Source: an uncultured Victivallales bacterium
GTDB taxonomy: Bacteria; Verrucomicrobiota; Lentisphaeria; Victivallales; UBA1829
Assembly: GCA_944391115.1 (NCBI GenBank)
Contig: CALXSJ010000002.1
Location: 248,001-312,000 of the forward strand
DNA: 64,000 nucleotides
Reading direction: 5' to 3'
The translations under genes were made by a program, and so were the position numbers. The notes under the pieces were generated by a model that ran no database searches, was not told where the DNA came from, and saw nothing but the letters and a program-made list of their open reading frames with translations. Positions 17,900 to 28,846 of this stretch are shown here, piece by piece. Position 1 is the first letter of the stretch. Every line of letters begins with the position of its first letter.

Positions 17900-18049
17900 C
17901 CGGCTTGCGTTTTCCGGAGATTTCCGGTCCGGCGGCGATTCTTCAAAAAAATCGAAAGGGAATCGGGAAACGCGCTTTCATATTTTCATATTTATGCTAT
18001 TGTTCCTTCGGTATCCATTGCTGAGCAATTTGTTTTGAGGAATCTTTTT

Positions 18050-20635
18050 ATGGCTTCTGACACCGGAGAAAAAACAACGACATTCAAATTGAGATATCTG
18101 ATCTGCGGAATTGCGCTGCTGCTTTTCCTGCTTTCCATATTTTCCTACAACCGTGCGGATCTGGCCGTGCTGGACGGCGGATCGGCGGAACCGCTCCGGA
18201 ACTGGGTCGGGCCGCTCGGAGCCAATCTCTCCCGCGTTCTTTTCCATGTTTTCGGGCTGGCGGTTTATCCGATCACCAGTCTTCTTATCATCTGTCTGGC
18301 GCGCGGCTTCATTCCTTATCCTCTGAAGCGGCGCGGCTACATCATGGCGCTCTGCGTGGCGATTCTGGGGATTGTGATTCTTCTGGCGCTGTTCCCGCAG
18401 GAATTCATTCTCCATACGGAGCGGCTCGGAATCGGGCACAGCGGGAAACCGGAGTTCGCCCTGTCAGGCGGTGCGCTCGGCGCCCTGATCGCTGCGCCGG
18501 AAACGGAGAATATTTCCGCCGGGATTCTCCGGCGCTTCATCGGAACGATCGGCACCATGGTGACCGCGCTCTGCCTGATTTTTTCAGGTCTTGTCTGGAT
18601 TTTCCTCCAGGATTGGAAGGATATGATTTTCGATGCGATCCGGGGAGGGGGCTCCGCGCCGGGCAGGAAGGGACGCAGGCTTCCGGATACGGAACGGGAG
18701 CCGATGTTCGAGGAAGAGGATGATTCCGCTTCTTCTGAGAAAGGGAAAAAGCCGAAATACCGTCCCGAATTCGAGGAGGACGCTCCGGCGGAACCGCCGG
18801 AAGGAGAGGAATCCCCGGAACCGGAAAAAAACGGGCGGCGCACTCTGTTCGGCCTGCTGAAAAATCGTCCGGCTGATCCGGAAGAGAAGGTGGATGCGCT
18901 TCCGGACGAAGAGGAGGAAAATCGGAAGGAACCGCCGCCTGCGGCGCGTCCGCGTTCCCATGCGGACAGCCTTGACGCGACGGACCGCGCCGCCGCGTCC
19001 GAACGCGACGACGCATTTGCGGACGAGAGAATGCGTCCTTCCGAAGTGACGCGTTCCAAGCTTCAGAAGCAGCATCAGGCGCCTTCCGTGCAGACCGCCA
19101 ATCCTGCGAATTACAATCTTCCGCCGGTACCCCTTCTCGACAAACCCCGGGACGTCCGGAGCGAGGACGACGAACATCTGAAGCAGGCCTGCGCGATCCT
19201 GCAGGCCACGCTGGACAGTTTTGAAATCAACGGCCGGGTCGCCGACACGGTCGTTGGCCCGCGCATCACCCGTTTCGACATTCAGCTGGAACCCGGCGTG
19301 AAGGTGGAGAAAGTCACCAACATCCAGAATAACATCGCCATGGAGATGAGCGCCGAAAGCATCCGCATTCTCGCGCCGATCCCCGGCAGGAACGCCGTCG
19401 GCATCGAACTGCCGAACAAGGTTTCCAACATGGTGTTCATCCGCGAACTGTTTGAATCCGAGGCATGGCGCAGTTCCAAGGCGGACATTCCGATCATCCT
19501 CGGCAAGGACGTCTCCGGCAAGGTGATTATCGCCGACCTGGCGAAGGCGCCGCATCTTCTGATCGCCGGATCGACCGGCAGCGGAAAGAGCGTCTGCATG
19601 AACACCCTCATCATGAGTCTTCTGTTCAAGTTCTCTCCCTTCAATCTGAAGCTGATTCTCGTCGATCCGAAGTTTGTCGAGCTGGAAATGTACCGGCCGC
19701 TGCCGCATCTGATCACACCGGTTGTGAACGACCCGAAAAAAGTGCCGTTCGCCCTGCGCTGGGGCGTCAACGAGATGGAGCACCGCTATCAGATGCTGGC
19801 GAAGGTCAAGGCGAAAAATCTCAATGCGTTCAATTCGCGGCCGCCCGATCCGGAACCGGTCTACGACGAGAACGGCGATCTGATTCCGCCGAAGCTTCCG
19901 CTGCTGGTGATTATTGTCGACGAACTGGCGGATATCATGATGACCGAGGCCAAGAGCGACGTGGAGACTTCGATCTGCCGGATTGCGCAGAAGGGGCGCG
20001 CCGCAGGCATCCACCTTGTCATTGCCACGCAGACGCCTCGAAAGGATATCATTACCGGAACAATCAAGGCGAACCTGCCGACGAAGATCGCATTCAAAGT
20101 GTCGACAGTAATGGACAGCCGCGTCATTCTCGACGCGATGGGTGCGGAAAAGCTCCTCGGGAAAGGCGATATGCTCTTCAAGGGGCCGAGCGGGGAAACC
20201 GAGCGCATCCAGGGATCTATGGTCTCCGATCCCGAAATCCAGAAGGTTGTCGACTTCGTCTCCAGCCAGGTGGAACAGCACTTCGACACCAAGGTCGTGC
20301 TGGAAAAACCGGAGGACGAGGAGGAGCCCGATGACGGGAAGAATTCCTTCCCGGACGAGGAGTTCGACGATGACGGCACGGCGGATTATGTCCGGACGGT
20401 CATTGCCAAATATCTGCAGCCCGGCGATGACGAGAACGTGAAGAAGGCGCTCGACATCATTATCCGCGAGGGCAAGGCGAGCACCTCCTATCTTCAGCGG
20501 CGCATGGGAATCGGTTACAACAAGGCGGCTGAAATCATCGACCGTCTGGAACAGCGCGGCATTGTCTCGGCGCCGCTTCCCGGCGGACAGAAACGCGACA
20601 TACTGGTTTTTGACGAATTGGGAAAACCGGATTGA
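18050..20635 (+). CDS. ftsK: DNA translocase FtsK/SpoIIIE
   Basis: An 861-residue septal DNA pump that moves chromosome termini into daughter cells. The N-terminus has about four transmembrane helices (residues 12-185). An acidic, Pro/Glu-rich linker (about 205-350) connects to the motor. Walker A, GSTGSGKS, is at 507-514 and Walker B is in LLVIIVDELADIMM. The C-terminal gamma winged helix (YLQRRMGIGYNKAAEIIDRL and EQRGIVSAPL) recognises oriented DNA motifs. ATG 18050 was chosen over the upstream TTG (18035) because GAGG lies nine bases before it. The stop codon overlaps the -35 element of the next gene. Confidence 0.95.
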   Translation: MASDTGEKTTTFKLRYLICGIALLLFLLSIFSYNRADLAVLDGGSAEPLRNWVGPLGANLSRVLFHVFGLAVYPITSLLIICLARGFIPYPLKRRGYIMALCVAILGIVILLALFPQEFILHTERLGIGHSGKPEFALSGGALGALIAAPETENISAGILRRFIGTIGTMVTALCLIFSGLVWIFLQDWKDMIFDAIRGGGSAPGRKGRRLPDTEREPMFEEEDDSASSEKGKKPKYRPEFEEDAPAEPPEGEESPEPEKNGRRTLFGLLKNRPADPEEKVDALPDEEEENRKEPPPAARPRSHADSLDATDRAAASERDDAFADERMRPSEVTRSKLQKQHQAPSVQTANPANYNLPPVPLLDKPRDVRSEDDEHLKQACAILQATLDSFEINGRVADTVVGPRITRFDIQLEPGVKVEKVTNIQNNIAMEMSAESIRILAPIPGRNAVGIELPNKVSNMVFIRELFESEAWRSSKADIPIILGKDVSGKVIIADLAKAPHLLIAGSTGSGKSVCMNTLIMSLLFKFSPFNLKLILVDPKFVELEMYRPLPHLITPVVNDPKKVPFALRWGVNEMEHRYQMLAKVKAKNLNAFNSRPPDPEPVYDENGDLIPPKLPLLVIIVDELADIMMTEAKSDVETSICRIAQKGRAAGIHLVIATQTPRKDIITGTIKANLPTKIAFKVSTVMDSRVILDAMGAEKLLGKGDMLFKGPSGETERIQGSMVSDPEIQKVVDFVSSQVEQHFDTKVVLEKPEDEEEPDDGKNSFPDEEFDDDGTADYVRTVIAKYLQPGDDENVKKALDIIIREGKASTSYLQRRMGIGYNKAAEIIDRLEQRGIVSAPLPGGQKRDILVFDELGKPD

Positions 20636-20659
20636 TTTCCCGGCAAACCGTGTTATAAT
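20632..20659 (+). promoter_or_regulatory. Promoter of the RodZ-like gene, overlapping the ftsK stop
   Basis: TTGATT (20632-20637), a 16-base spacer and a consensus TATAAT (20654-20659). The ftsK stop codon TGA (20633-20635) lies inside the -35 element. Transcription would start near 20666, which rules out the GTG at 20665 as the start of the next gene. Confidence 0.6.
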
Positions 20660-20694
20660 TATACGTGAAAACAGAAAACATGCGACGGTGCATC

Positions 20695-21813
20695 ATGGCA
20701 GACGGAAACAACAAACTGAATGCGGAACTCAGAAAAGTCGAAGACGATCTTTTTGCCGCGGAGGATTTCTCCGGAAAGACTCCCGTTCCGCTCGACGACG
20801 TTCTGAAACCGCTTCCCGTCCCGGACGAGGACTTGAATCCCGTTGCGGCGGGATTTGTGCCTGTCAAGGAGGATTTTTCCCGTGCGGTTCCTGATGAACC
20901 GCATTCCGCCCCCGCGATCAGAACTTTTTCCGAGAGCCGTCCTCTGCCGAAGCGCGATGTATTCAGCGAACCAGTGAAACCCGCGGAACCGCTTCCTGCC
21001 GATTCCGCCTCTGCGGAAGAGCCGCTTCCTGTGCCGGAAGAGCCTGCGGTTTCCGTCTCCCGTCCTCTTGAGGAGATGCCTGCTCCCGTTCCGGAGCCGC
21101 CCGCCGCGCCGCCTGTTTCTTCCGTTCCGGAGCCGCCCGCCGCGCCGCCAGTTTCTTCCGTTCCGGAGCCGCCCGCCGCGCCGCCTGTTTCTCCTGCTCC
21201 GAAGCGGCAGGAACCAAAACCCGTTTCCCTGCGGCAGAATCCGGTTTCGCACCGGCAGACTGCCGTTCCCGACATGGAGCACGCTTCGCTCGGGACAATT
21301 CTCCGGCAGGCCAGGAATGCCGCCGGACTGACTGCGGAACAGGCGGCGGATGTGACGAAAATCCGCCTGGACTACATCGTCGGAATTGAGAACGATGATT
21401 TCAAACGTCTGCCTCCGGTGGTGTTTATCCGCGCCTATTCCCGGACGCTCGCCGTGCTTTACAAACTGGATCAGGCCGCGCTGGACGCCGTCATGCGCCG
21501 GGTTGACGAGCTGGAGCCTCCGGCGGATGTGCCCAGACAGCTTTTGCAGAAGCTGGAGAAGGATGTTCAGGTCAGTGAAGAGGAGACAAAGAAGCTGAAG
21601 CGGATGATCCTCTATGCCGGCCTGGCTGTTGCGCTGATTGTATCCCTTACCGTCACCTGCATTGTCGCTGCGGCGGTCGGTCGGGCCAGGAACACGGCGG
21701 AAATACCGTCCGCTTCCGGTCAGACTGTTCCTGCCGTTCAGACCGCGGATCTCGAAAAACTGCTGCCGCAGCAGGTGCCGGAGGTCAGAGTTCTGGAGAT
21801 TCCCGGAAAATGA
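20695..21813 (+). CDS. RodZ-like membrane protein with cytoplasmic HTH domain
   Basis: A protein of 372 residues from ATG 20695, or 377 from ATG 20680; neither start has a strong ribosome-binding site. It has a long acidic, Pro-rich N-terminus, then a helix-turn-helix of the Cro/RodZ type (about 200-262: LGTILRQARNAAGLTAEQAA and VVFIRAYSRTLAVLYKLD), one transmembrane helix (about 304-329) and a short outer tail. RodZ links MreB to the cell wall machinery and helps set rod shape. Canonical RodZ starts with the HTH, so the extra N-terminal 200 residues, with three tandem 12-residue repeats, are unusual. The position next to ftsK suits a cell-shape or division role. Confidence 0.7.
   Translation: MADGNNKLNAELRKVEDDLFAAEDFSGKTPVPLDDVLKPLPVPDEDLNPVAAGFVPVKEDFSRAVPDEPHSAPAIRTFSESRPLPKRDVFSEPVKPAEPLPADSASAEEPLPVPEEPAVSVSRPLEEMPAPVPEPPAAPPVSSVPEPPAAPPVSSVPEPPAAPPVSPAPKRQEPKPVSLRQNPVSHRQTAVPDMEHASLGTILRQARNAAGLTAEQAADVTKIRLDYIVGIENDDFKRLPPVVFIRAYSRTLAVLYKLDQAALDAVMRRVDELEPPADVPRQLLQKLEKDVQVSEEETKKLKRMILYAGLAVALIVSLTVTCIVAAAVGRARNTAEIPSASGQTVPAVQTADLEKLLPQQVPEVRVLEIPGK
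21088..21195 (+). repeat. Three tandem 36-bp repeats inside the RodZ-like gene
   Basis: Copies at 21088-21123, 21124-21159 and 21160-21195 encode VPEPPAAPPVSS with almost no base changes (the third ends SP). They lengthen a Pro-rich disordered linker in steps of 12 residues and could vary in number between strains. Confidence 0.9.
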
Positions 21814-21912
21814 CTCTGCTGCCGCGGGGGAGGAGGAAATTCCGTTTCCGGCGGCTGCGCTTCTGAGGATCCTTTCCGCAAGGGGAAAAGATTCTGAAAA
21901 CAGGAAGGAAAA

Positions 21913-22659
21913 ATGGAAAAAACATCGGATGACTGTGCTCCGGGAGAGAAGGCTGCCGTGCTGCCGGAGTCTTCCCGGACTGTGCGATCCTGCGTTCCCG
22001 TCCCGAAGATTGAGGAGGACTGCTATGACTGGTGGGCCCGGCACGAGGAAAAATGCCGCACGGCCTGTTCCTTTCGCGCGGAGGTTGTGTTTCTGGGGGA
22101 TTCCCTGACTCATTTCTGGTCCGGCGAGTCCGGCCCTGATTACGGGGAGGGTCTCTGGAAGGAGCTGTACGGGGGATTGCCGGTTTTGAATCTGGGGTTC
22201 GGCTTCGACCGGACGCAGAACGTGCTCTGGCGCGTGGCGCACGGGGAACTCGCAGACCAGTCACCGTCGCTTTTCGTCGTCAATATCGGGACGAACCAGT
22301 TTTCCATTACTCCTTCTTACAGCGGCGATACGCCGGAAGAGGCCGCGCACGGGATTGTATGCGTGGCGGAGGAGCTTCACCGGAGAGCGCCGGATGCGCT
22401 TGTCCTGCTGATGGCGCTGTTTCCGCGCGGGAACAAGGTGCGAGAGATCCGGGAAACCAACCGGATTGTGCGTGCCGCGCTTCCGGCGATGCCGTTTGCG
22501 GAATGGGTGGATCTCGGCGGGATTTTCGGAGATGAGAACGGATGTCCGCGGGAGTGGTTCTATCAGGCGGACTTGTGCCATCTCAAGCGTGCGGGGTATC
22601 AGGTCTGGGGGAACGCTATTGCGCCCTGGGTTGCGCGGAGCGTTTCGAAGAAGAATTGA
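21913..22659 (+). CDS. SGNH/GDSL-family hydrolase (PAF-acetylhydrolase-like)
   Basis: A 248-residue esterase-like protein. The nucleophile Ser64 lies in VVFLGDSLTHFW (block I), Asn is in VVNIGTNQF (block III) and the Asp220-x2-His223 pair is in DLCHLKRAGY (block V). The order and spacing fit the SGNH fold, in the subgroup like platelet-activating-factor acetylhydrolase. No signal peptide is seen; residues 1-30 are extra. Likely substrates are acylated sugars, but this is not shown. It follows the RodZ-like gene by 100 bases on the same strand. Confidence 0.82.
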   Translation: MEKTSDDCAPGEKAAVLPESSRTVRSCVPVPKIEEDCYDWWARHEEKCRTACSFRAEVVFLGDSLTHFWSGESGPDYGEGLWKELYGGLPVLNLGFGFDRTQNVLWRVAHGELADQSPSLFVVNIGTNQFSITPSYSGDTPEEAAHGIVCVAEELHRRAPDALVLLMALFPRGNKVREIRETNRIVRAALPAMPFAEWVDLGGIFGDENGCPREWFYQADLCHLKRAGYQVWGNAIAPWVARSVSKKN

Positions 22660-22769
22660 ACCGGACAAGAGCGAGGGGGGGAGAGGCGGTTTTCTCCGCC
22701 GGCATTTGAATCCCCGTTTCTGACGTTTTGTCCGGCTTGTACATGATAGCGGAGAACAGGAGGTTTTCA

Positions 22770-23141
22770 GTGAAATTCAGAATGGTCCATAATAATTTCA
22801 ACGTCCTTGATCTTGAGAAGAGCCTGAAATTCTACCGTGAAGCTTTTGATATGCATGAAGTCCGGCGGATCGAGGCGAAGGACGGAAGTTTCATCATCGT
22901 CTATCTGGAGGAAGGGAACAGTTCACATCAACTGGAACTGACATGGCTCCGGGATCGCAAGGAGCCGTACAATCTCGGGGATAACGAATTCCATCTGGCG
23001 TTCAAGGTCGATGATTATGAAGCCGCCCACGCCCGTCACGAGAAAATGGGCTGCATCTGTTACGAAAATCCTGAAATGGGGATTTACTTTTGCGAAGACC
23101 CGGATTCATACTGGGTCGAGGTCATACCGGAGAAATTTTAG
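22770..23141 (+). CDS. Glyoxalase-fold (VOC superfamily) protein, glyoxalase I-like
   Basis: A 123-residue protein with two beta-alpha-beta3 modules. The four metal ligands expected for glyoxalase I are present: His7 (MVHNNFNVLD), Glu56 (SSHQLELTW), His75 (EFHLAFKV) and Glu117 (YWVEVIPEKF), with spacing very close to the Escherichia coli enzyme. Glyoxalase I converts the methylglyoxal-glutathione hemithioacetal to lactoylglutathione. The GTG at 22770 was taken as start because AGGAGG (22759-22764) is ideally placed. It is the last GC-rich gene before the AT-rich restriction-modification cassette. Confidence 0.85.
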   Translation: MKFRMVHNNFNVLDLEKSLKFYREAFDMHEVRRIEAKDGSFIIVYLEEGNSSHQLELTWLRDRKEPYNLGDNEFHLAFKVDDYEAAHARHEKMGCICYENPEMGIYFCEDPDSYWVEVIPEKF

Positions 23142-23276
23142 AAGCTTTTAGGGAATTGTTCTTTAATGACAGTACATTCATTTGTGTCTGAGGGTCATTT
23201 TGAAGAAAAGTTATTTTTTCGATGATTTATTATCTGATTATTCATACTCCATAAGATAATTTGTTTTTTTTGATTT

Positions 23277-24014
23277 ATGGATTATTTTACTTTGAATAAA
23301 AACTTGATGTTTGGAAATGAAATTATGACACCACAGCAATCAACAAATTCAACTTTATACAATTGGCTGCCTCCTGATATTTTAAAGGCATATTCTGTTT
23401 ACAACTACAATCATGCTGCTGAAATTTTATCTCAGTCGTTTCCTGAGGAACTAAACGAAATCTTAGAAACCTTGAGAACTCTAACTATTTCAATTGGAGA
23501 GATTAAACAAGCAGGCGGAAATGAATCTCCTATCCCTCCTAAATTTTCTACGGCTTTAGAGCCTAAAGGGTGGCGTGAAATCCGTATTTCAGGCGATTTA
23601 CTTATTAAATTTTTTCCTCGTCGAGGAACAAAGAAAGGCTTTTTTTCCAATAAGCCATCTGATGAAAAAGTTATTGAAAATTATATCGATGGTCACAATA
23701 TTGATTTTGTGAAGGGGCGAGTCGCTATTGATATTGAATGGAACAGCAAAGATCAAACTTTTGATAGAGATCTCTTTGCAATGCGTACGTATTACGAATG
23801 CGATATTATCAGTGTGGGTATTATCATTACACGTGATGTATCCTTAAATGCTATTTTCAGAAAATATGGATTATTATCAAAATATGGCGCCAGTACCACT
23901 TGGATGGGGAAATTGTTACCTCGATTAAATTCCCGCAGACATGGAGGTTGCCCTATTTTAGCAATTGGAATAAAACCAGCTATTGTATCAGGAGATGAGA
24001 GAAATGAAAAGTGA
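23277..24014 (+). CDS. Type II restriction endonuclease, BglII/BstYI-like
   Basis: A 245-residue protein resembling the BglII/BstYI endonuclease family. The core HNIDFVKGRVAIDIEWNSKD has an acidic residue (Asp143), then Asp152-x-Glu154-x-Asn156 and Lys158. This fits the atypical PD-(D/E)xK site of that family, where a Gln or Asn stands near the catalytic Glu. Further support is DRDLFAMRTYYECDIISVGI. Homodimeric members cut within GATC-centred sites such as AGATCT or RGATCY; the exact site here is an inference. The start is uncertain (23277, or ATG 23307 or 23325, none with a good ribosome-binding site). The gene is AT-rich, unlike its neighbours, and overlaps its methyltransferase by 11 bases. 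Confidence 0.78.
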   Translation: MDYFTLNKNLMFGNEIMTPQQSTNSTLYNWLPPDILKAYSVYNYNHAAEILSQSFPEELNEILETLRTLTISIGEIKQAGGNESPIPPKFSTALEPKGWREIRISGDLLIKFFPRRGTKKGFFSNKPSDEKVIENYIDGHNIDFVKGRVAIDIEWNSKDQTFDRDLFAMRTYYECDIISVGIIITRDVSLNAIFRKYGLLSKYGASTTWMGKLLPRLNSRRHGGCPILAIGIKPAIVSGDERNEK

Positions 24015-24681
24015 AATTCCTCTTGAACAGACGATTGATAGCTTTTTGACATTCTGTAATCATCAAAAATTTAAGACAATTTTAGCAGACCCTCCGTGGC
24101 AGTTTAAAAATCGTACGGGCAAAGTTGCTCCAGAACATAAAAGGCTTAATCGTTATCCGACAATGACTCTGGAAGATATTATGAAACTTCCAGTTAGCCA
24201 TGTAACGGAGTCTTGTTGTCATTTATATTTATGGGTTCCCAATGCTCTTTTGCCTGATGGTTTAGCCGTAATGCAGGCTTGGGGATTTGAATATAAAACA
24301 AACCTTATCTGGGAAAAAATTCGCCATGATGGTTTTCCTGATGGGCGAGGAGTTGGTTTTTATTTCAGAAATGTAACGGAGATTCTTCTCTTCGGCATAA
24401 AAGGGAAAGGTTATAGAACTCTTGCCCCGGCTCGTAGCCAAGTTAATTTGATTAGACGTATGAAGCAAGAACATTCCAGAAAACCGGATGTTTTTTATTC
24501 ATTGATCGAAACTTGTAGTGAAGGACCGTATTTGGAGATGTTTGCTCGAGGTATTCGGAAAAACTGGTTCCTATGGGGGAATCAAGCTAATGACAATTAT
24601 GTTCCAGATTGGACTACTTATAAGAATAATTCTTCAGTATTGTCTGCGATCAATGACGATTTATTCTGTATGCAGGAATGA
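24004..24681 (+). CDS. MT-A70-family adenine-N6 DNA methyltransferase
   Basis: A 225-residue methyltransferase that should protect host DNA by methylating adenine in the site cut by the adjacent nuclease. The catalytic motif Asp29-Pro-Pro-Trp32 (TILADPPWQF) is present. The MT-A70 features LYLWVPNALLPDGLAVMQAW and the substrate loop with RKPDVFYSLIE also appear, followed by ELFARG-like YLEMFARG. ATG 24004 was chosen over 23995 because AGGAG (23990-23994) fits it. The 11-base overlap with the nuclease gene suggests translational coupling. Both genes share low G+C content, which points to joint acquisition. No control protein is seen. Confidence 0.88.
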   Translation: MKSEIPLEQTIDSFLTFCNHQKFKTILADPPWQFKNRTGKVAPEHKRLNRYPTMTLEDIMKLPVSHVTESCCHLYLWVPNALLPDGLAVMQAWGFEYKTNLIWEKIRHDGFPDGRGVGFYFRNVTEILLFGIKGKGYRTLAPARSQVNLIRRMKQEHSRKPDVFYSLIETCSEGPYLEMFARGIRKNWFLWGNQANDNYVPDWTTYKNNSSVLSAINDDLFCMQE

Positions 24682-24893
24682 AGGAATACAAATCTTTATG
24701 AAGAGGTTACCGACAACTGTCGGCTGGAAAGAGTCTCGGAAAAGCATTGGACATTTTTCATCGCAGCTTGTTTTTTCAATCCTTATCCGCATGCAGAGCT
24801 GGGCCATGTAATTCCTCCGCATTCGGACATGTCTGACGGCAAAAGCCGTTCCCTCAGTCCTGAAAGATTCTGCAATATCTTTTGTTTGAGAAC
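24682..24893. other. Gene-free junction after the restriction-modification cassette
   Basis: No gene is seen. Base composition returns from AT-rich to the host level across this stretch. A small inverted repeat CCGACA/TGTCGG (24710-24715, 24718-24723) follows the methyltransferase, without a T tract. No flanking direct repeats, tRNA or integrase were found that would mark an insertion site. Confidence 0.5.
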
Positions 24894-24922
24894 TTGAAGA
24901 AATGCCGTCGAAAGTGTATCTT
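24894..24922 (+). promoter_or_regulatory. Putative promoter of the DUF1015-kds-lpt operon
   Basis: TTGAAG (24894-24899), 17-base spacer, TATCTT (24917-24922). The ribosome-binding site AGGAGAA (24947-24953) and ATG 24963 follow. Confidence 0.5.
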
Positions 24923-24962
24923 TCCCCCTGATGATGTTTTTAATTCAGGAGAACAGACCGCC

Positions 24963-26195
24963 ATGGCAAAATTTTTACCGTTTCATGCGCTGATGCCGCC
25001 GCCGGAAAAGGTCGCGGCCGTCGCCGCCGTCCCCTATGATGTGGTGAATACCGAGGAGGCCGCCGCTCTTGCAGACGGCAACCCGTTGAGTTTTCTGCGT
25101 GTTTCACGCCCCGAAATCGAACTCGCCCCCGGAACCGATCTCTATTCCGACGAAGTCTATGCGCGGGCGGCGGCGAATTTCAAACGTCTCCGCCGGGAAG
25201 CGCCGCTTGCCGAAGATCCCGAGGCGAATCTTTATGTGTATTCCCTGAAAATGGGTGAGCACACCCAGGTCGGCATCGCCGGAGCCGCTTCCGCCGCGGA
25301 GTATGATGCGGGAGTGATCAAAAAGCACGAAAAGACCCGCAGGGACAAGGAGGATGACCGCGCACGCCATGTCATGGAGCTGCGCAATCATTCCGGGCCG
25401 GTCTTCCTGACCTACCGCGACTCCGCTTCCATTGACGCGATGGTCCATGACATCATGAAGGCCAGACCGTATTTCAGCTTTACGGCGCCGGACGGCATCG
25501 AGCACAAACTCTGGAAGGCCGGAGCGGAAAAAAGCCGGGAACTCTCCCGGATTTTCGAAACGGAGGTGCCCTGCTTCTACATTGCCGACGGACACCATCG
25601 CGCGGCGTCCGCCTCCCGCGCGGCGGCCGCCTGCAGGGCCGCGAATCCCGCGCACCGCGGAGATGAGGATTACAACTATTTCCTTGCCGTCACGTTTCCC
25701 GCGTCCCAGCTGCGCATCCTGCCGTACAATCGCGTCGTTCACGATCTCAATGGTCTTTCCTCCGATGAATTTCTCCGGAAGGTCGGAGAAAAATTCACCA
25801 TTGCCCCGTCGGACAGTCCGTCTCCGGCGGAAAGCGGAGCGTTCTGCATGTATTTCGAAGGCAAATGGCATCTTCTGCGCCCGCGTTTCGACATCTCGAA
25901 TCTGGGAGTGATCGAACGTCTGGACGTGAGCATTCTTCAGGACAATATTCTTGCGCCGCTTCTCGGCATTGACGATCCGCGCACCAGCAGGCGCATCGAC
26001 TTCATCGGCGGAATCCGCGGAACGAAGGAGCTTGAAAAACTGGTGGATTCCGGAAAGGGAGCGGTCGCGTTCTCGATGTATCCGACGACTTTGCCGCAGC
26101 TGATGGCGATTGCCGACGCGGATGCGATCATGCCGCCGAAATCGACCTGGTTCGAGCCGAAGCTGCGCGACGGTCTCGTCACCCATAACTTCTGA
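24963..26195 (+). CDS. DUF1015-family protein
   Basis: A 410-residue cytoplasmic protein of the DUF1015 family, whose function is not established. Family features include the start FLPFHALMPPPEKV, VAAVPYDVVNTEEA, NPLSFLRVSRPEIEL and the histidine-rich FYIADGHHRAASA. The motif HEKTRRDKEDDRARHVMELR, typical of the family, is present. ATG 24963 was chosen because AGGAGAA precedes it by nine bases and the family N-terminus begins there. It heads a close plus-strand run into kdsB, 15 bases away, so it belongs to the Kdo/LPS operon by position. Confidence 0.88.
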   Translation: MAKFLPFHALMPPPEKVAAVAAVPYDVVNTEEAAALADGNPLSFLRVSRPEIELAPGTDLYSDEVYARAAANFKRLRREAPLAEDPEANLYVYSLKMGEHTQVGIAGAASAAEYDAGVIKKHEKTRRDKEDDRARHVMELRNHSGPVFLTYRDSASIDAMVHDIMKARPYFSFTAPDGIEHKLWKAGAEKSRELSRIFETEVPCFYIADGHHRAASASRAAAACRAANPAHRGDEDYNYFLAVTFPASQLRILPYNRVVHDLNGLSSDEFLRKVGEKFTIAPSDSPSPAESGAFCMYFEGKWHLLRPRFDISNLGVIERLDVSILQDNILAPLLGIDDPRTSRRIDFIGGIRGTKELEKLVDSGKGAVAFSMYPTTLPQLMAIADADAIMPPKSTWFEPKLRDGLVTHNF

Positions 26196-26210
26196 TCCGG
26201 AGGGTTCCTG

Positions 26211-26963
26211 ATGGCGATGAAAAGCATAGCGGTGATTCCCGCGCGGTATGCAAGCACGCGGTTCCCCGGCAAGGTTCTGGCAGATCTCGGCGGGAAACCG
26301 ATTCTTCAGCATGTATGGGAGCGCACGAAACGCTCAAAAGCGGATTCCGTGCTGATTGCCGTTGACGATCCGAAGGTGTTTGACGCGGCGCGCGCGTTCG
26401 GCGCCGACGTCGTGATGACCTCTCCGGATCATCCCTCCGGTTCCGACCGGATCTGGGAGGCGGTGCGGGGACGCGATGCCGGGATTGTCATCAATGTGCA
26501 GGGCGATGAGCCGTTTGTCAAGCCGCAGGTCATTGATTCGCTGATCGGCGCGATGTCCGATCCCGGAGCGCCGGACATGGCGACTGTCGCGGTTCCGTGT
26601 CCCCGCGCGGAGTTCGCGGACAATCCGAACATGGTGAAGGTCGTCATGACCGCGGACGGTTTTGCCCTTTACTTCAGCCGCTCGATGATTCCGTTCCTCC
26701 GGACCGGAGGCGCGGAGATGGAAACATTCCGGCACTGGGGAATTTACGCCTACCGGCGGGAAGCCCTCGCGCGTTTCGTCTCGCTGCCGGAGGGAAATCT
26801 CGAAAAATGCGAGAAACTCGAACAGCTTCGCGCGCTGGAGAACGGCATGCGGATCAAGGTCATCAAAACGGTCTATCAGAGCGTCGGGATCGACACGCCG
26901 GAAGAGCTTGAGAAAGCCGGGCGTTTTCTGGCGGAACTCAAACGCAGGGGAGAGGAACAATGA
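26211..26963 (+). CDS. kdsB: 3-deoxy-manno-octulosonate cytidylyltransferase
   Basis: A 250-residue enzyme that couples Kdo to CMP, activating it for lipid A glycosylation. The nucleotide-binding motif IPARYASTRFPGKVLADLGG is at the N-terminus, followed by the family sequences SPDHPSGSDRIWEAV and VINVQGDEPFV. The C-terminal VYQSVGIDTPEELEKA is also typical. GGAGGG lies five bases before the ATG. Its stop overlaps the start of kdsA in an ATGA junction. Confidence 0.95.
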   Translation: MAMKSIAVIPARYASTRFPGKVLADLGGKPILQHVWERTKRSKADSVLIAVDDPKVFDAARAFGADVVMTSPDHPSGSDRIWEAVRGRDAGIVINVQGDEPFVKPQVIDSLIGAMSDPGAPDMATVAVPCPRAEFADNPNMVKVVMTADGFALYFSRSMIPFLRTGGAEMETFRHWGIYAYRREALARFVSLPEGNLEKCEKLEQLRALENGMRIKVIKTVYQSVGIDTPEELEKAGRFLAELKRRGEEQ

Positions 26964-27781
26964 AAACGGCGAAAGTCGGAAATTTTGAAGTCGGAGGGGA
27001 GAAGTTCACGCTGATCGGCGGCCCCTGCGTGGCGGAAGGTCCCGAAATCTGTCTGGAGATCGCCTCATTCCTGAAAGATCTCTGCATGTCCCGGGGCGTT
27101 TCCTATATTTTCAAGGCTTCCTTTGACAAGGCAAACCGTTCTTCCGGGAGCTCATTCCGGGGAAAAGGCATGGAATACGGGCTTGAGATCCTTTCCGGAA
27201 TCAAGTCGAAACTGCGTCTTCCCGTTCTGACCGACATTCATGAATCGGAGCAGGCGCAGGCTGTGGCGAAGGTTGTGGACGTGATCCAGATCCCGGCGTT
27301 TCTCTGCCGGCAGACCGACCTCCTGGTCGCCGCCGCCCGCACGGGACTGCCCGTGAACGTGAAGAAAGGCCAGTTCATGGCGCCGGAGGATATGAAGGGC
27401 GCGGTCGGCAAACTCGAGGGGGCGGGCTGTGCCGGGATCATGCTGACCGAGCGGGGATCCTCGTTCGGGTATCATAACCTTGTCGTGGATATGCGTTCGC
27501 TTCAGACGATGGGATCGTTCGGGTATCCGGTGATTTTCGACGCGACGCATTCGGTGCAGCTTCCCGGCGGGCTCGGCAGCGCTTCCGGCGGACAGCGCGA
27601 ATTCATTGCCGCGCTGTCCCGCGCGGCGGCGGGCGTCGGGATCAACGGAATCTTCATGGAGGTGCATCCGGAACCGGAGAAGGCGCTTTCGGACGGACCG
27701 AACAGTCTCGATTTTGCGAATGCGGAAAAAGTGCTTGACCAGGTGCTTGCCATTTATGAACTTACACGAAAAATGCGCTGA
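26960..27781 (+). CDS. kdsA: 3-deoxy-8-phosphooctulonate synthase
   Basis: A 273-residue TIM-barrel enzyme that condenses phosphoenolpyruvate with arabinose 5-phosphate to Kdo 8-phosphate. Characteristic motifs are IGGPCVAEGPE, FKASFDKANRSSGSSFRGKG, PVLTDIHE, KKGQFMAPEDM and VIFDATHSVQLPG. The start overlaps the kdsB stop by four bases. Its 3' end overlaps kdsC by 26 bases in another frame, giving tight coupling of three successive Kdo steps. Confidence 0.95.
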   Translation: MKTAKVGNFEVGGEKFTLIGGPCVAEGPEICLEIASFLKDLCMSRGVSYIFKASFDKANRSSGSSFRGKGMEYGLEILSGIKSKLRLPVLTDIHESEQAQAVAKVVDVIQIPAFLCRQTDLLVAAARTGLPVNVKKGQFMAPEDMKGAVGKLEGAGCAGIMLTERGSSFGYHNLVVDMRSLQTMGSFGYPVIFDATHSVQLPGGLGSASGGQREFIAALSRAAAGVGINGIFMEVHPEPEKALSDGPNSLDFANAEKVLDQVLAIYELTRKMR

Positions 27782-28280
27782 AATCAAGGCGGTTGTCCTG
27801 GACGTGGACGGCGTTCTGACCGACGGACGGATCGGTTACGGCGGCGGTTCGGAAAATGAGATCAAGTTTTTCCACGTGCGCGACGGCCATGGAATCGTGC
27901 TTGCCCGCCGCGCGGGACTTCTGGTCGGGATTCTCTCCGGACGGCAGTCCGTTGCGAACCGTATCCGGGCGGCGGAGCTGAAACTGGATTTTCTGTATGA
28001 AAAAATCCTTGACAAGGATGCCGGCTTCACGACGCTTCTGCATGACCGCTCCCTTGCCCCGGAGCAGTGCATGTACATCGGCGACGACATTGTGGACGCG
28101 CCGCCGATGAAACGCTGCGGCTTTGCCGTGGCCGTCGGAGACGCCGTGCCCGAACTGGACAGGGTCTGCGACATGCGGACGAAACATGCGGGCGGCCGCG
28201 GCGCCGTGCGCGAGGCGATTGAATTTCTACTGAAAGAGCAAGGCAAATGGGACGCTTTAATGGAACGTTATTTTTCCTGA
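27756..28280 (+). CDS. kdsC: 3-deoxy-D-manno-octulosonate 8-phosphate phosphatase
   Basis: A 174-residue HAD-superfamily phosphatase of the KdsC type that removes phosphate from Kdo 8-phosphate. The nucleophile motif Asp16-x-Asp18 is in VVLDVDGVLTDG. Motif II lies in GILSGRQS, the conserved Lys in ILDKDAGF and the acidic motif IV in YIGDDIVDAPPM. The short length without a cap domain suits the tetrameric KdsC subgroup. ATG 27756 lies within the end of kdsA. lptC begins before the kdsC stop, as in many LPS operons. Confidence 0.93.
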   Translation: MNLHEKCAEIKAVVLDVDGVLTDGRIGYGGGSENEIKFFHVRDGHGIVLARRAGLLVGILSGRQSVANRIRAAELKLDFLYEKILDKDAGFTTLLHDRSLAPEQCMYIGDDIVDAPPMKRCGFAVAVGDAVPELDRVCDMRTKHAGGRGAVREAIEFLLKEQGKWDALMERYFS

Positions 28281-28846
28281 TCGCCGGACTGACCGTGTTT
28301 GCGGCGCTGCTGCCGGAACACGCGGCGGGGGCCGAAGATACCGGCGCCGCGGTTTCGCTGACCAACTTCGCGCTGCCCGAATACCGGAAGAAGGACAACC
28401 GTCTTCAGTTCATCATCTATGGCGACCGGGCGACCAATCTGGGCGCATTCATCAATCTGGAGAATCCGCTGATGGACATCATCAGTGAAAACATCCGCAA
28501 TATCAACGAGGTGGTTCCGCTCGGCGGCGTGAAACTCTATCCTCTGAACGCTCCGGCCGCGGAAGTCAACCGGTTCTGGGCGGACAAGAAACATTGCCGC
28601 GCCCTGATTTTTTCGACGGCTGCGGAATACAACAAGAATACGAAAGTGCTCCGCGGCGATACGCCGGCCTTTTTCCGTTCCCGCGAAATGGACATCGACG
28701 GCGTGGGGTTTGACGCCGATTATGAAAACAAGCTGATTCATATCCGCAGCAAGGTCCGGATGGTGATCCGTCCGGAATACCGGCGCGGCGGAATGGGCGG
28801 CGGCGTGAAGAAAACCAATCAACCAGCAAAGGATCAGACAAAATGA
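28247..28846 (+). CDS. lptC: LptC-like LPS export protein
   Basis: A 199-residue protein with an N-terminal membrane or signal segment (TLFFLIAGLTVFAALLPEHA) and a beta-rich region. The pattern LPEYRKKDNRLQFIIYGDRA and later VGFDADYENKLIHIRSKVRM fits the beta-jellyroll of LptC/LptA proteins. LptC anchors the periplasmic LPS bridge to the LptBFG transporter. Sequence identity in this family is low, so the call rests heavily on position: kdsC-lptC-lptA-lptB is the usual order. It overlaps kdsC by 34 bases and lptA by 4. Confidence 0.75.
   Translation: MGRFNGTLFFLIAGLTVFAALLPEHAAGAEDTGAAVSLTNFALPEYRKKDNRLQFIIYGDRATNLGAFINLENPLMDIISENIRNINEVVPLGGVKLYPLNAPAAEVNRFWADKKHCRALIFSTAAEYNKNTKVLRGDTPAFFRSREMDIDGVGFDADYENKLIHIRSKVRMVIRPEYRRGGMGGGVKKTNQPAKDQTK

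Follow-up and report, generated by a model that had tools for sequence, protein, structure and literature searches.

A two-gene restriction–modification cassette of a BglII/BstYI-family nuclease and an MT-A70 methyltransferase, predicted to act at RGATCY, in an uncultured Victivallales bacterium

Nph3I, the restriction–modification (R-M) system of the Nitratiruptor phage NrS-3, pairs a nuclease of Pfam family PF09195 (R.Nph3I, NRS3_08) with a methyltransferase (M.Nph3I, NRS3_07) that follows it on the same strand with no gene between them. R.Nph3I cuts all four variants of RGATCY and is fully blocked by N6-methyladenine (m6A), while M.Nph3I makes RG(m6A)TCY with an in vitro preference for GGATCC, which was methylated to more than 95%, whereas the remaining variants reached 32 ± 6% (PMC10734518). 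In SMRT data, RGATCY carries m6A at almost 100% in both phage and host DNA (PMC10734518, PMC9723563). Among tested REBASE enzymes, M.Dor12838I of Desulfomicrobium orale, also an RGATCY m6A enzyme, is named as the closest to the Nitratiruptor methyltransferases (PMC9723563). The two phage-borne Nph3I genes do not overlap, and a gene annotated as a transcriptional regulator follows the methyltransferase. In the deposited annotation of NrS-3 (L244, 3486–4073), R.Nph3I (there NrS3_08) bears the name 'methyltransferase'; that it is the nuclease is taken from the literature (PMC10734518).

Unlike R.Nph3I, the commercial enzymes BglII (AGATCT) and BstYI (RGATCY) are not blocked by adenine methylation of GATC (PMC10287943; for BstYI also PMC10734518), and M.BglII is an N4-cytosine enzyme, as 'possibly' is M.BstYI (PMC2890505). 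A further system, RMC of Acinetobacter baumannii A118, which we liken by description, has a BglII/BstYI-type nuclease, m6A at RGATCY and protection by Dam methylation; its methyltransferase is described as a DNA adenine methylase, and a helix-turn-helix regulator gene lies between the two genes (PMC10287943). In open-licence PMC, two papers contain both the terms MT-A70 and BglII, and to judge by title and abstract they concern other subjects.

The cassette and its two products

The window, by which we mean the whole stretch of 64,000 nt that was analysed, carries at 23241–24681 what by its sequence is a complete AT-rich two-gene type II R-M cassette, a further member of a known R-M type whose closest tested relative resides in a deep-sea phage. 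Two overlapping open reading frames lie on the + strand: a nuclease frame open from 23277 to 24014, and a methyltransferase frame from the ATG at 24004 to the end of the stop codon at 24681. The nuclease most likely starts at the ATG at 23325 rather than at the open-frame limit of 23277, because an 85%-identical relative in the genome G024 has that start alone. This gives a type II restriction endonuclease of the BglII/BstYI family of 229 aa (23325–24014, + strand), so assigned by PF09195, its match to BstYI and a structural model. The second gene (24004–24681, + strand) is predicted to encode an MT-A70 adenine-N6 DNA methyltransferase of 225 aa with DPPW at residues 29–32, on the basis of PF05063, PADLOC and its identity to M.Nph3I. 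By their coordinates the two frames share 11 bases (24004–24014, + strand), an overlap that may couple their translation.

By blastn, the unit common to the window and G024 spans 23241–24679. Its 5' part, ahead of the likely nuclease start (23241–23324, + strand), presumably contains the promoter and ribosome-binding region, and a block of 31 nt at 23258–23288 (+ strand) is identical in the two genomes; a scan for promoters and terminators returned hits at chance level only. The G+C content is 0.34–0.40 within the cassette against about 0.54–0.65 outside, with a graded edge, and taken as a whole the pair stands at 0.37, the remainder of the window at 0.57. An earlier reading of this DNA, made from the sequence alone, had described an AT-rich pair of a BglII/BstYI-like nuclease and an MT-A70 methyltransferase that overlap by 11 bases and are poorer in G+C than their surroundings, and our analysis bears out this description.

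The nuclease matches PF09195 (Endonuc-BglII) at 8.1e-44 with 149.7 bits (cut-off 26) and BstYI (1sdo) by phmmer at 6.2e-4; a search of NCBIfam gave no match, and in PHROGs the methyltransferase was matched and the nuclease was not. An AlphaFold model built from 36 aligned sequences has a mean pLDDT of 92.2, and in Foldseek BstYI was its sole match below an E value of 0.001. In structural comparison, the model aligns with BstYI at a VIA Z of 17.9 (2.9 Å, 168 residues), with BglII at 17.5 (2.1 Å, 147 residues), with BamHI at 15.0 (3.3 Å, 162 residues) and with OkrAI at 13.1, the next family below these reaching only 5.2. Profile and model thus agree in placing the protein in the BglII/BstYI/BamHI fold, at 21–26% identity to BstYI and BglII over the 147–168 residues. 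BglII and BstYI are dimers.

The frame is full length, with neither stop nor frameshift, and encodes the conserved active-site residues of its family, as an endonuclease gene of a type II R-M system should. Across 136 aligned nucleases, all of them beside an MT-A70 gene and some being near-copies or the same record twice, D127, E138, W139, N140, K142, D143, D147-R148-D149 and C209-P210 are invariant (136/136), and position 136 is D in 111 and E in 25. The phmmer alignment sets D-F-V-K-D-R-V-A-I-E-V-Q of BstYI against D127-F-V-K-G-R-V-A-I-D136-I-E138, so that BstYI reads E-V-Q where the window clade reads (D/E)-x-E-W-N-x-K-D. E138 may thus stand where BstYI has a glutamine, which in view of the weak sequence alignment is a lead only.

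The methyltransferase matches PF05063 (MT-A70) at 5.9e-29 with 101.6 bits (cut-off 23.9) and PADLOC MTase_II at 2.2e-85, and D29-P30-P31-W32 is invariant in 9 of 9 methyltransferases compared. A DNA methyltransferase gene thus adjoins the nuclease gene, as in type II R-M systems generally, and its MT-A70 family sets it apart from the BglII system proper, which has an N4-cytosine methyltransferase (PMC2890505). Because the closest solved structures belong to the MT-A70 family (MT-A70/METTL3), some of them named mRNA m6A methyltransferase, and a prophage MT-A70 enzyme is reported, with a partner protein, to methylate 16S rRNA (PMC10810198), RNA must be considered as a substrate in place of DNA. 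We regard this as most improbable: M.Nph3I, whose action on DNA has been tested, resembles the window enzyme far more closely than those proteins do, and in 79 of the best 80 nuclease loci described below the window enzyme or one of its kin has a restriction nuclease for a neighbour.

The likely target site and its protection

It is the methyltransferase that points to a target. Aligned over 207 columns, the window enzyme and M.Nph3I are 65% identical, and from this identity, not from the BglII-like label of the nuclease, RG(m6A)TCY is predicted as its product; the label alone would predict no m6A guard, because GATC adenine methylation leaves BglII and BstYI unblocked. By analogy with Nph3I, RGATCY with m6A at the inner adenine is the likely target of the window pair, and the outer bases are likely the same as well. 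The prediction of adenine methylation in a GATC-centred site, already made in the sequence-only reading, is thereby strengthened, since M.Nph3I makes RG(m6A)TCY (PMC10734518). M.Nph3I itself would be MT-A70-like by its 65% identity to the window enzyme; the term 'MT-A70' does not occur in PMC10734518.

The nuclease is the more distant of the two proteins. It is 39% identical to R.Nph3I, which is shorter (195 aa) and belongs to another clade across a long branch, so the site might differ in its outer bases. The same R-M system could accordingly recognise the GATC core in another context, such as AGATCT only, GGATCC only or any GATC. In favour of such a shift are the separate clade of the window nuclease, its extra residues at about 86–122, and fold neighbours that cut AGATCT, RGATCY and GGATCC. 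M.Nph3I, moreover, itself favoured GGATCC in vitro (PMC10734518). We nevertheless consider a different site unlikely, since the two enzymes of a system must share their site and the window methyltransferase is not only close to M.Nph3I but still 61–70% identical to the methyltransferase partners of the other nuclease subtype.

Our preferred reading is that of a complete minimal type II R-M system, gained horizontally, with predicted cutting at RGATCY and guarding as RG(m6A)TCY, to which we assign a probability of about 0.83. Acting presumably as a dimer, as BglII and BstYI do, the nuclease would cut RGATCY (R = A/G, Y = C/T), and the MT-A70 enzyme would methylate the inner adenine; the resulting RG(m6A)TCY would block the nuclease, so that unmodified incoming DNA is cut and host DNA is spared. 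Both genes would belong to a single operon in which the nuclease precedes the methyltransferase and the start of the latter falls inside the end of the former, and the pair would restrict phages. Cutting, m6A and blocking are in print for Nph3I; for the window pair, we infer a shared site, activity, phage restriction and translational coupling. Judged by its sequence, the cassette is probably active. Several points weigh against this reading: the nuclease is distant from R.Nph3I, RGATCY is avoided no more than in a congener that lacks the system, the sole RGATCY site of the cassette, an AGATCT at 23768–23773 (no strand assigned), lies within the nuclease gene, and viral kin of the methyltransferase are often found without a nuclease (50 of the best 80 are paired). 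The genome of the window, like those of its relatives, is moreover a draft.

Site avoidance was rejected as a clue to the target in either direction. Palindrome counts were pooled over 80 loci from genomes, 80 from viral contigs (51 that have a nuclease and 29 that lack one), 32 intended controls and the window, the controls being unclean in that L097, L108, L109 and L111 come from system-holding genomes and L092–L094 overlap L130–L132. Neither this pool nor the comparison of the window's own genome with a congener revealed a depletion specific to the system: the observed/expected ratio of RGATCY is 0.897 in 262.5 kb of the former and 0.875 in 227 kb of the latter, which lacks the system. AGATCT is depleted in both, with 58 observed against 138.4 expected in the own genome (both strands, 262.5 kb) and 60 against 119.3 in the congener (227 kb). 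The earlier statement that the sites occur freely is loose in view of the depletion of AGATCT; avoidance does not, however, exceed that of a congener without the system, which fits recent gain only weakly.

Pairing and spread of the two genes

The nuclease and the methyltransferase travel together. We searched 61 genomes, namely the window's own and those of 60 relatives, of which many are incomplete drafts, and found the nuclease in 9 and the methyltransferase in 10; in all nine nuclease genomes the methyltransferase adjoins in the same order, and the tenth methyltransferase genome, G039, has only a 42% relative. In a wider genome collection, a methyltransferase lies just downstream on the same strand in 79 of the best 80 nuclease loci, that is, those nearest the window nuclease, and in the exception (L227) the contig ends 3 nt after the nuclease match. 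When pairs from all sources are pooled, 111 of 140 show the order nuclease then methyltransferase; 87 of these 111 co-directional pairs overlap, 20 are separated by gaps of 0–30 nt and 4 by wider ones, by our own rule for choosing start codons. The distance matrices of the two proteins correlate over 136 pairs at r = 0.80, the best of 300 permutations reaching 0.19.

No third gene is conserved with the pair: when the 490 proteins of 70 aa or more encoded no further than 3 kb from 86 loci were clustered, the largest family occurred in 7 loci, and a third partner was rejected on this ground, with the size threshold of the clustering being such that a small control gene could escape it. A second, shorter, Nph3I-like nuclease subtype is found with the same kind of MT-A70 methyltransferase in the host order, at L138 (G020), L139 (G043, its nuclease clipped by the contig end) and L140 (G044).

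Viral contigs present a more varied picture. From 106 confirmed relatives of the methyltransferase the best 80 were kept, and 50 of these 80 have a nuclease no more than 1.5 kb away (convergent in 25, nuclease-first in 21, methyltransferase-first in 3 and divergent in 1). Of the other 30, 6 are clipped, whereas 24 extend for 1.5 kb or more to either side; one of the 24, L036, has a nuclease 1.6 kb away. Nuclease-less MT-A70 methyltransferases that are close kin of paired ones, among them those of the viral loci L017, L041, L043, L050, L053 and L061, are scattered over the tree. In a tree of 84 methyltransferases, the orphan state must have changed about 15 times, with 10 or more of these changes forced by well supported branches, a count that is blind to gain versus loss and in which some orphan rows are near-copies. 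Such scatter fits repeated loss of the nuclease.

It could be asked, then, whether the window nuclease is itself silent or dead, with the methyltransferase acting alone as an epigenetic or protective enzyme. The 24 well-flanked viral loci and the repeated changes of orphan state lend this some plausibility, as does an adenine methyltransferase of Methylococcus capsulatus, likened here by description, that is predicted for RGATCY and has no nuclease near it (PMC13390346). The window nuclease, however, is intact and keeps every residue invariant in the 136 sequences, and we hold an orphan role to be very unlikely here.

Named mobile elements with the nuclease are few. It occurs in 5 of 50,697 named phage records, one Mesorhizobium phage accounting for two of them, and these five alone reach a methyltransferase identity of at least 60% among 351 records with any match; among named plasmids, 13 of 72,556 records have it. 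On the Comamonas plasmid pZM22-2 (L246, 2737–5785), a recombinase family gene, the nuclease/methyltransferase pair and an abortive infection family gene stand in a row.

Origin of the cassette and its junctions

Horizontal gain of the cassette is well supported by its distribution, because the three congeners (drafts, 94–96% complete) lack both genes in our searches and a relative from another genus has the pair elsewhere at 83% DNA identity. This nearest copy, in G024 of the same family, resembles the window only over 23241–24679, the rest of its 7.7-kb contig having no match here; its nuclease and methyltransferase are 85% and 89% identical to ours, and its DUF1015 protein only 71%. The pattern is best read as transfer. 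In G025, the identities of the two copies (70% and 69%) do not exceed that of DUF1015 (72%), and G020 combines the Nph3I-like nuclease subtype (39%) with a 67% methyltransferase; several cassette histories are therefore suggested within one host family.

Base composition is less informative. Of the chromosomal loci with enough flank among the best of the genome collection, 77 of 78 have a pair that is AT-richer than its surroundings, as do 8 of 8 other holders in the host order but only 27 of 49 viral loci; the window's G+C gap of −0.204 ranks fourth of 139. Since low G+C is usual in chromosomal copies, it cannot by itself date the gain, and we rejected it as a clock. The sequence-only reading of a recent mobile gain is thus upheld as regards transfer, while low G+C supports it less than had been supposed. 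Relatives that all carried the genes at host G+C would have spoken against gain; in our sample of 60 relatives, which includes many incomplete drafts, 52 showed no nuclease, and the 8 other holders have the pair AT-richer than its flanks.

To the left of the cassette, Pfam identifies FtsK, a RodZ-like HTH_25 protein, a GDSL hydrolase and a glyoxalase, and to the right DUF1015, a KdsB-like cytidylyltransferase, a KdsA-like DAHP_synth_1 protein, a KdsC-like HAD hydrolase and one ORF without a Pfam match. The Kds names are our reading of the Pfam matches, and such genes would fit the Kdo (LPS) pathway. None of these nine neighbouring ORFs (18035–28846) is by Pfam an integrase, transposase, phage or plasmid gene, in agreement with the earlier statement that no phage or integrase gene is near. 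No flanking repeat was found within 22700–25000, nor a second copy of the cassette edges in the own genome. An integrase-borne element (prophage or integrative element) was rejected on the lack of integrase and transposase genes in the nine ORFs and of terminal repeats.

These neighbours bear on whether the cassette mainly serves itself, as a selfish addiction module or a phage or plasmid relic, and is not a selected host defence. The absence of a conserved third gene around the pair would suit this explanation, as would related pairs in named phages, in a plasmid read and in 50 of the best 80 viral contigs; the nine neighbours, with no phage or plasmid gene among them, do not. Selfish and defensive roles are not mutually exclusive, nothing in the data separates them, and we consider a mainly self-serving cassette doubtful, if a more serious contender than a changed site. 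The reading of a complete, horizontally gained R-M system is the one we retain.

The cassette sits at a variable junction. The congener G001 has an intact block from FtsK to glyoxalase, with homology as far as window position 23136, but its DUF1015 gene is on another contig; in G002 and G003, no two of glyoxalase, FtsK and DUF1015 share a contig. Homology upstream of DUF1015 starts at 24858–24863 in G001–G003, preceded there by 8.9–15 kb of other DNA. This leaves unmatched DNA of about 104 nt on the left, an AT-rich stretch from the end of glyoxalase homology to the cassette (23137–23240), and of 176 nt on the right, from the cassette end to the conserved region upstream of DUF1015 (24682–24857); neither stretch, to which no strand is assigned, has a second copy in the own genome. 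The search for an empty site in related genomes that the earlier reading had proposed found none, and a clean empty site was rejected, as left and right flanks are not together in any of the three congeners. Glyoxalase and LPS genes do flank the cassette, as had been claimed, but a simple insertion between two neighbours is not demonstrable.

The stretch 24682–24753 weakly resembles the DNA that follows a glyoxalase gene in G002. In this comparison, one of 21 made, the score of 42 was reached by 1 of 200 shuffles; the likeness may be a trace of the old junction, but we place no reliance on it. When the left flank was compared in the same run, 0 of 200 shuffles were recorded against the DNA that follows glyoxalase in G019 (L153), and 1 of 200 against the end of glyoxalase. 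The glyoxalase gene (22770–23141) has relatives of 90–96% protein identity in two genomes of another genus (two copies in G012, one in G019) and of 77% in G010, was not found in G024 and G026, and has varying surroundings among congeners; it may be mobile itself.

More broadly, and tentatively, at rather less than even odds, MT-A70 methyltransferases and BglII-fold nucleases may form a distinct and widespread m6A-guarded RGATCY lineage that moves as a bare two-gene cassette among chromosomes, plasmids and phages, with many of the closely related 'orphan' phage MT-A70 methyltransferases as leftovers of repeated nuclease loss. The nuclease fold would then have been coupled to methyltransferases of different kinds, namely an N4-cytosine enzyme in BglII, an MT-A70 enzyme in this cassette and a further adenine methylase in A. 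baumannii, and every such coupling would need a matching change in the methylation sensitivity of the nuclease. The window extends a tested phage R-M type to the chromosomes of Victivallales-related bacteria, and the pairing data indicate that the nuclease and its MT-A70 partner are a common mobile unit. The authors of the Nph3I work themselves raise the question of differing m6A blocking (PMC10734518), and this family is well suited to asking how one fold came to be blocked by m6A, as in R.Nph3I, or not, as in BglII and BstYI.
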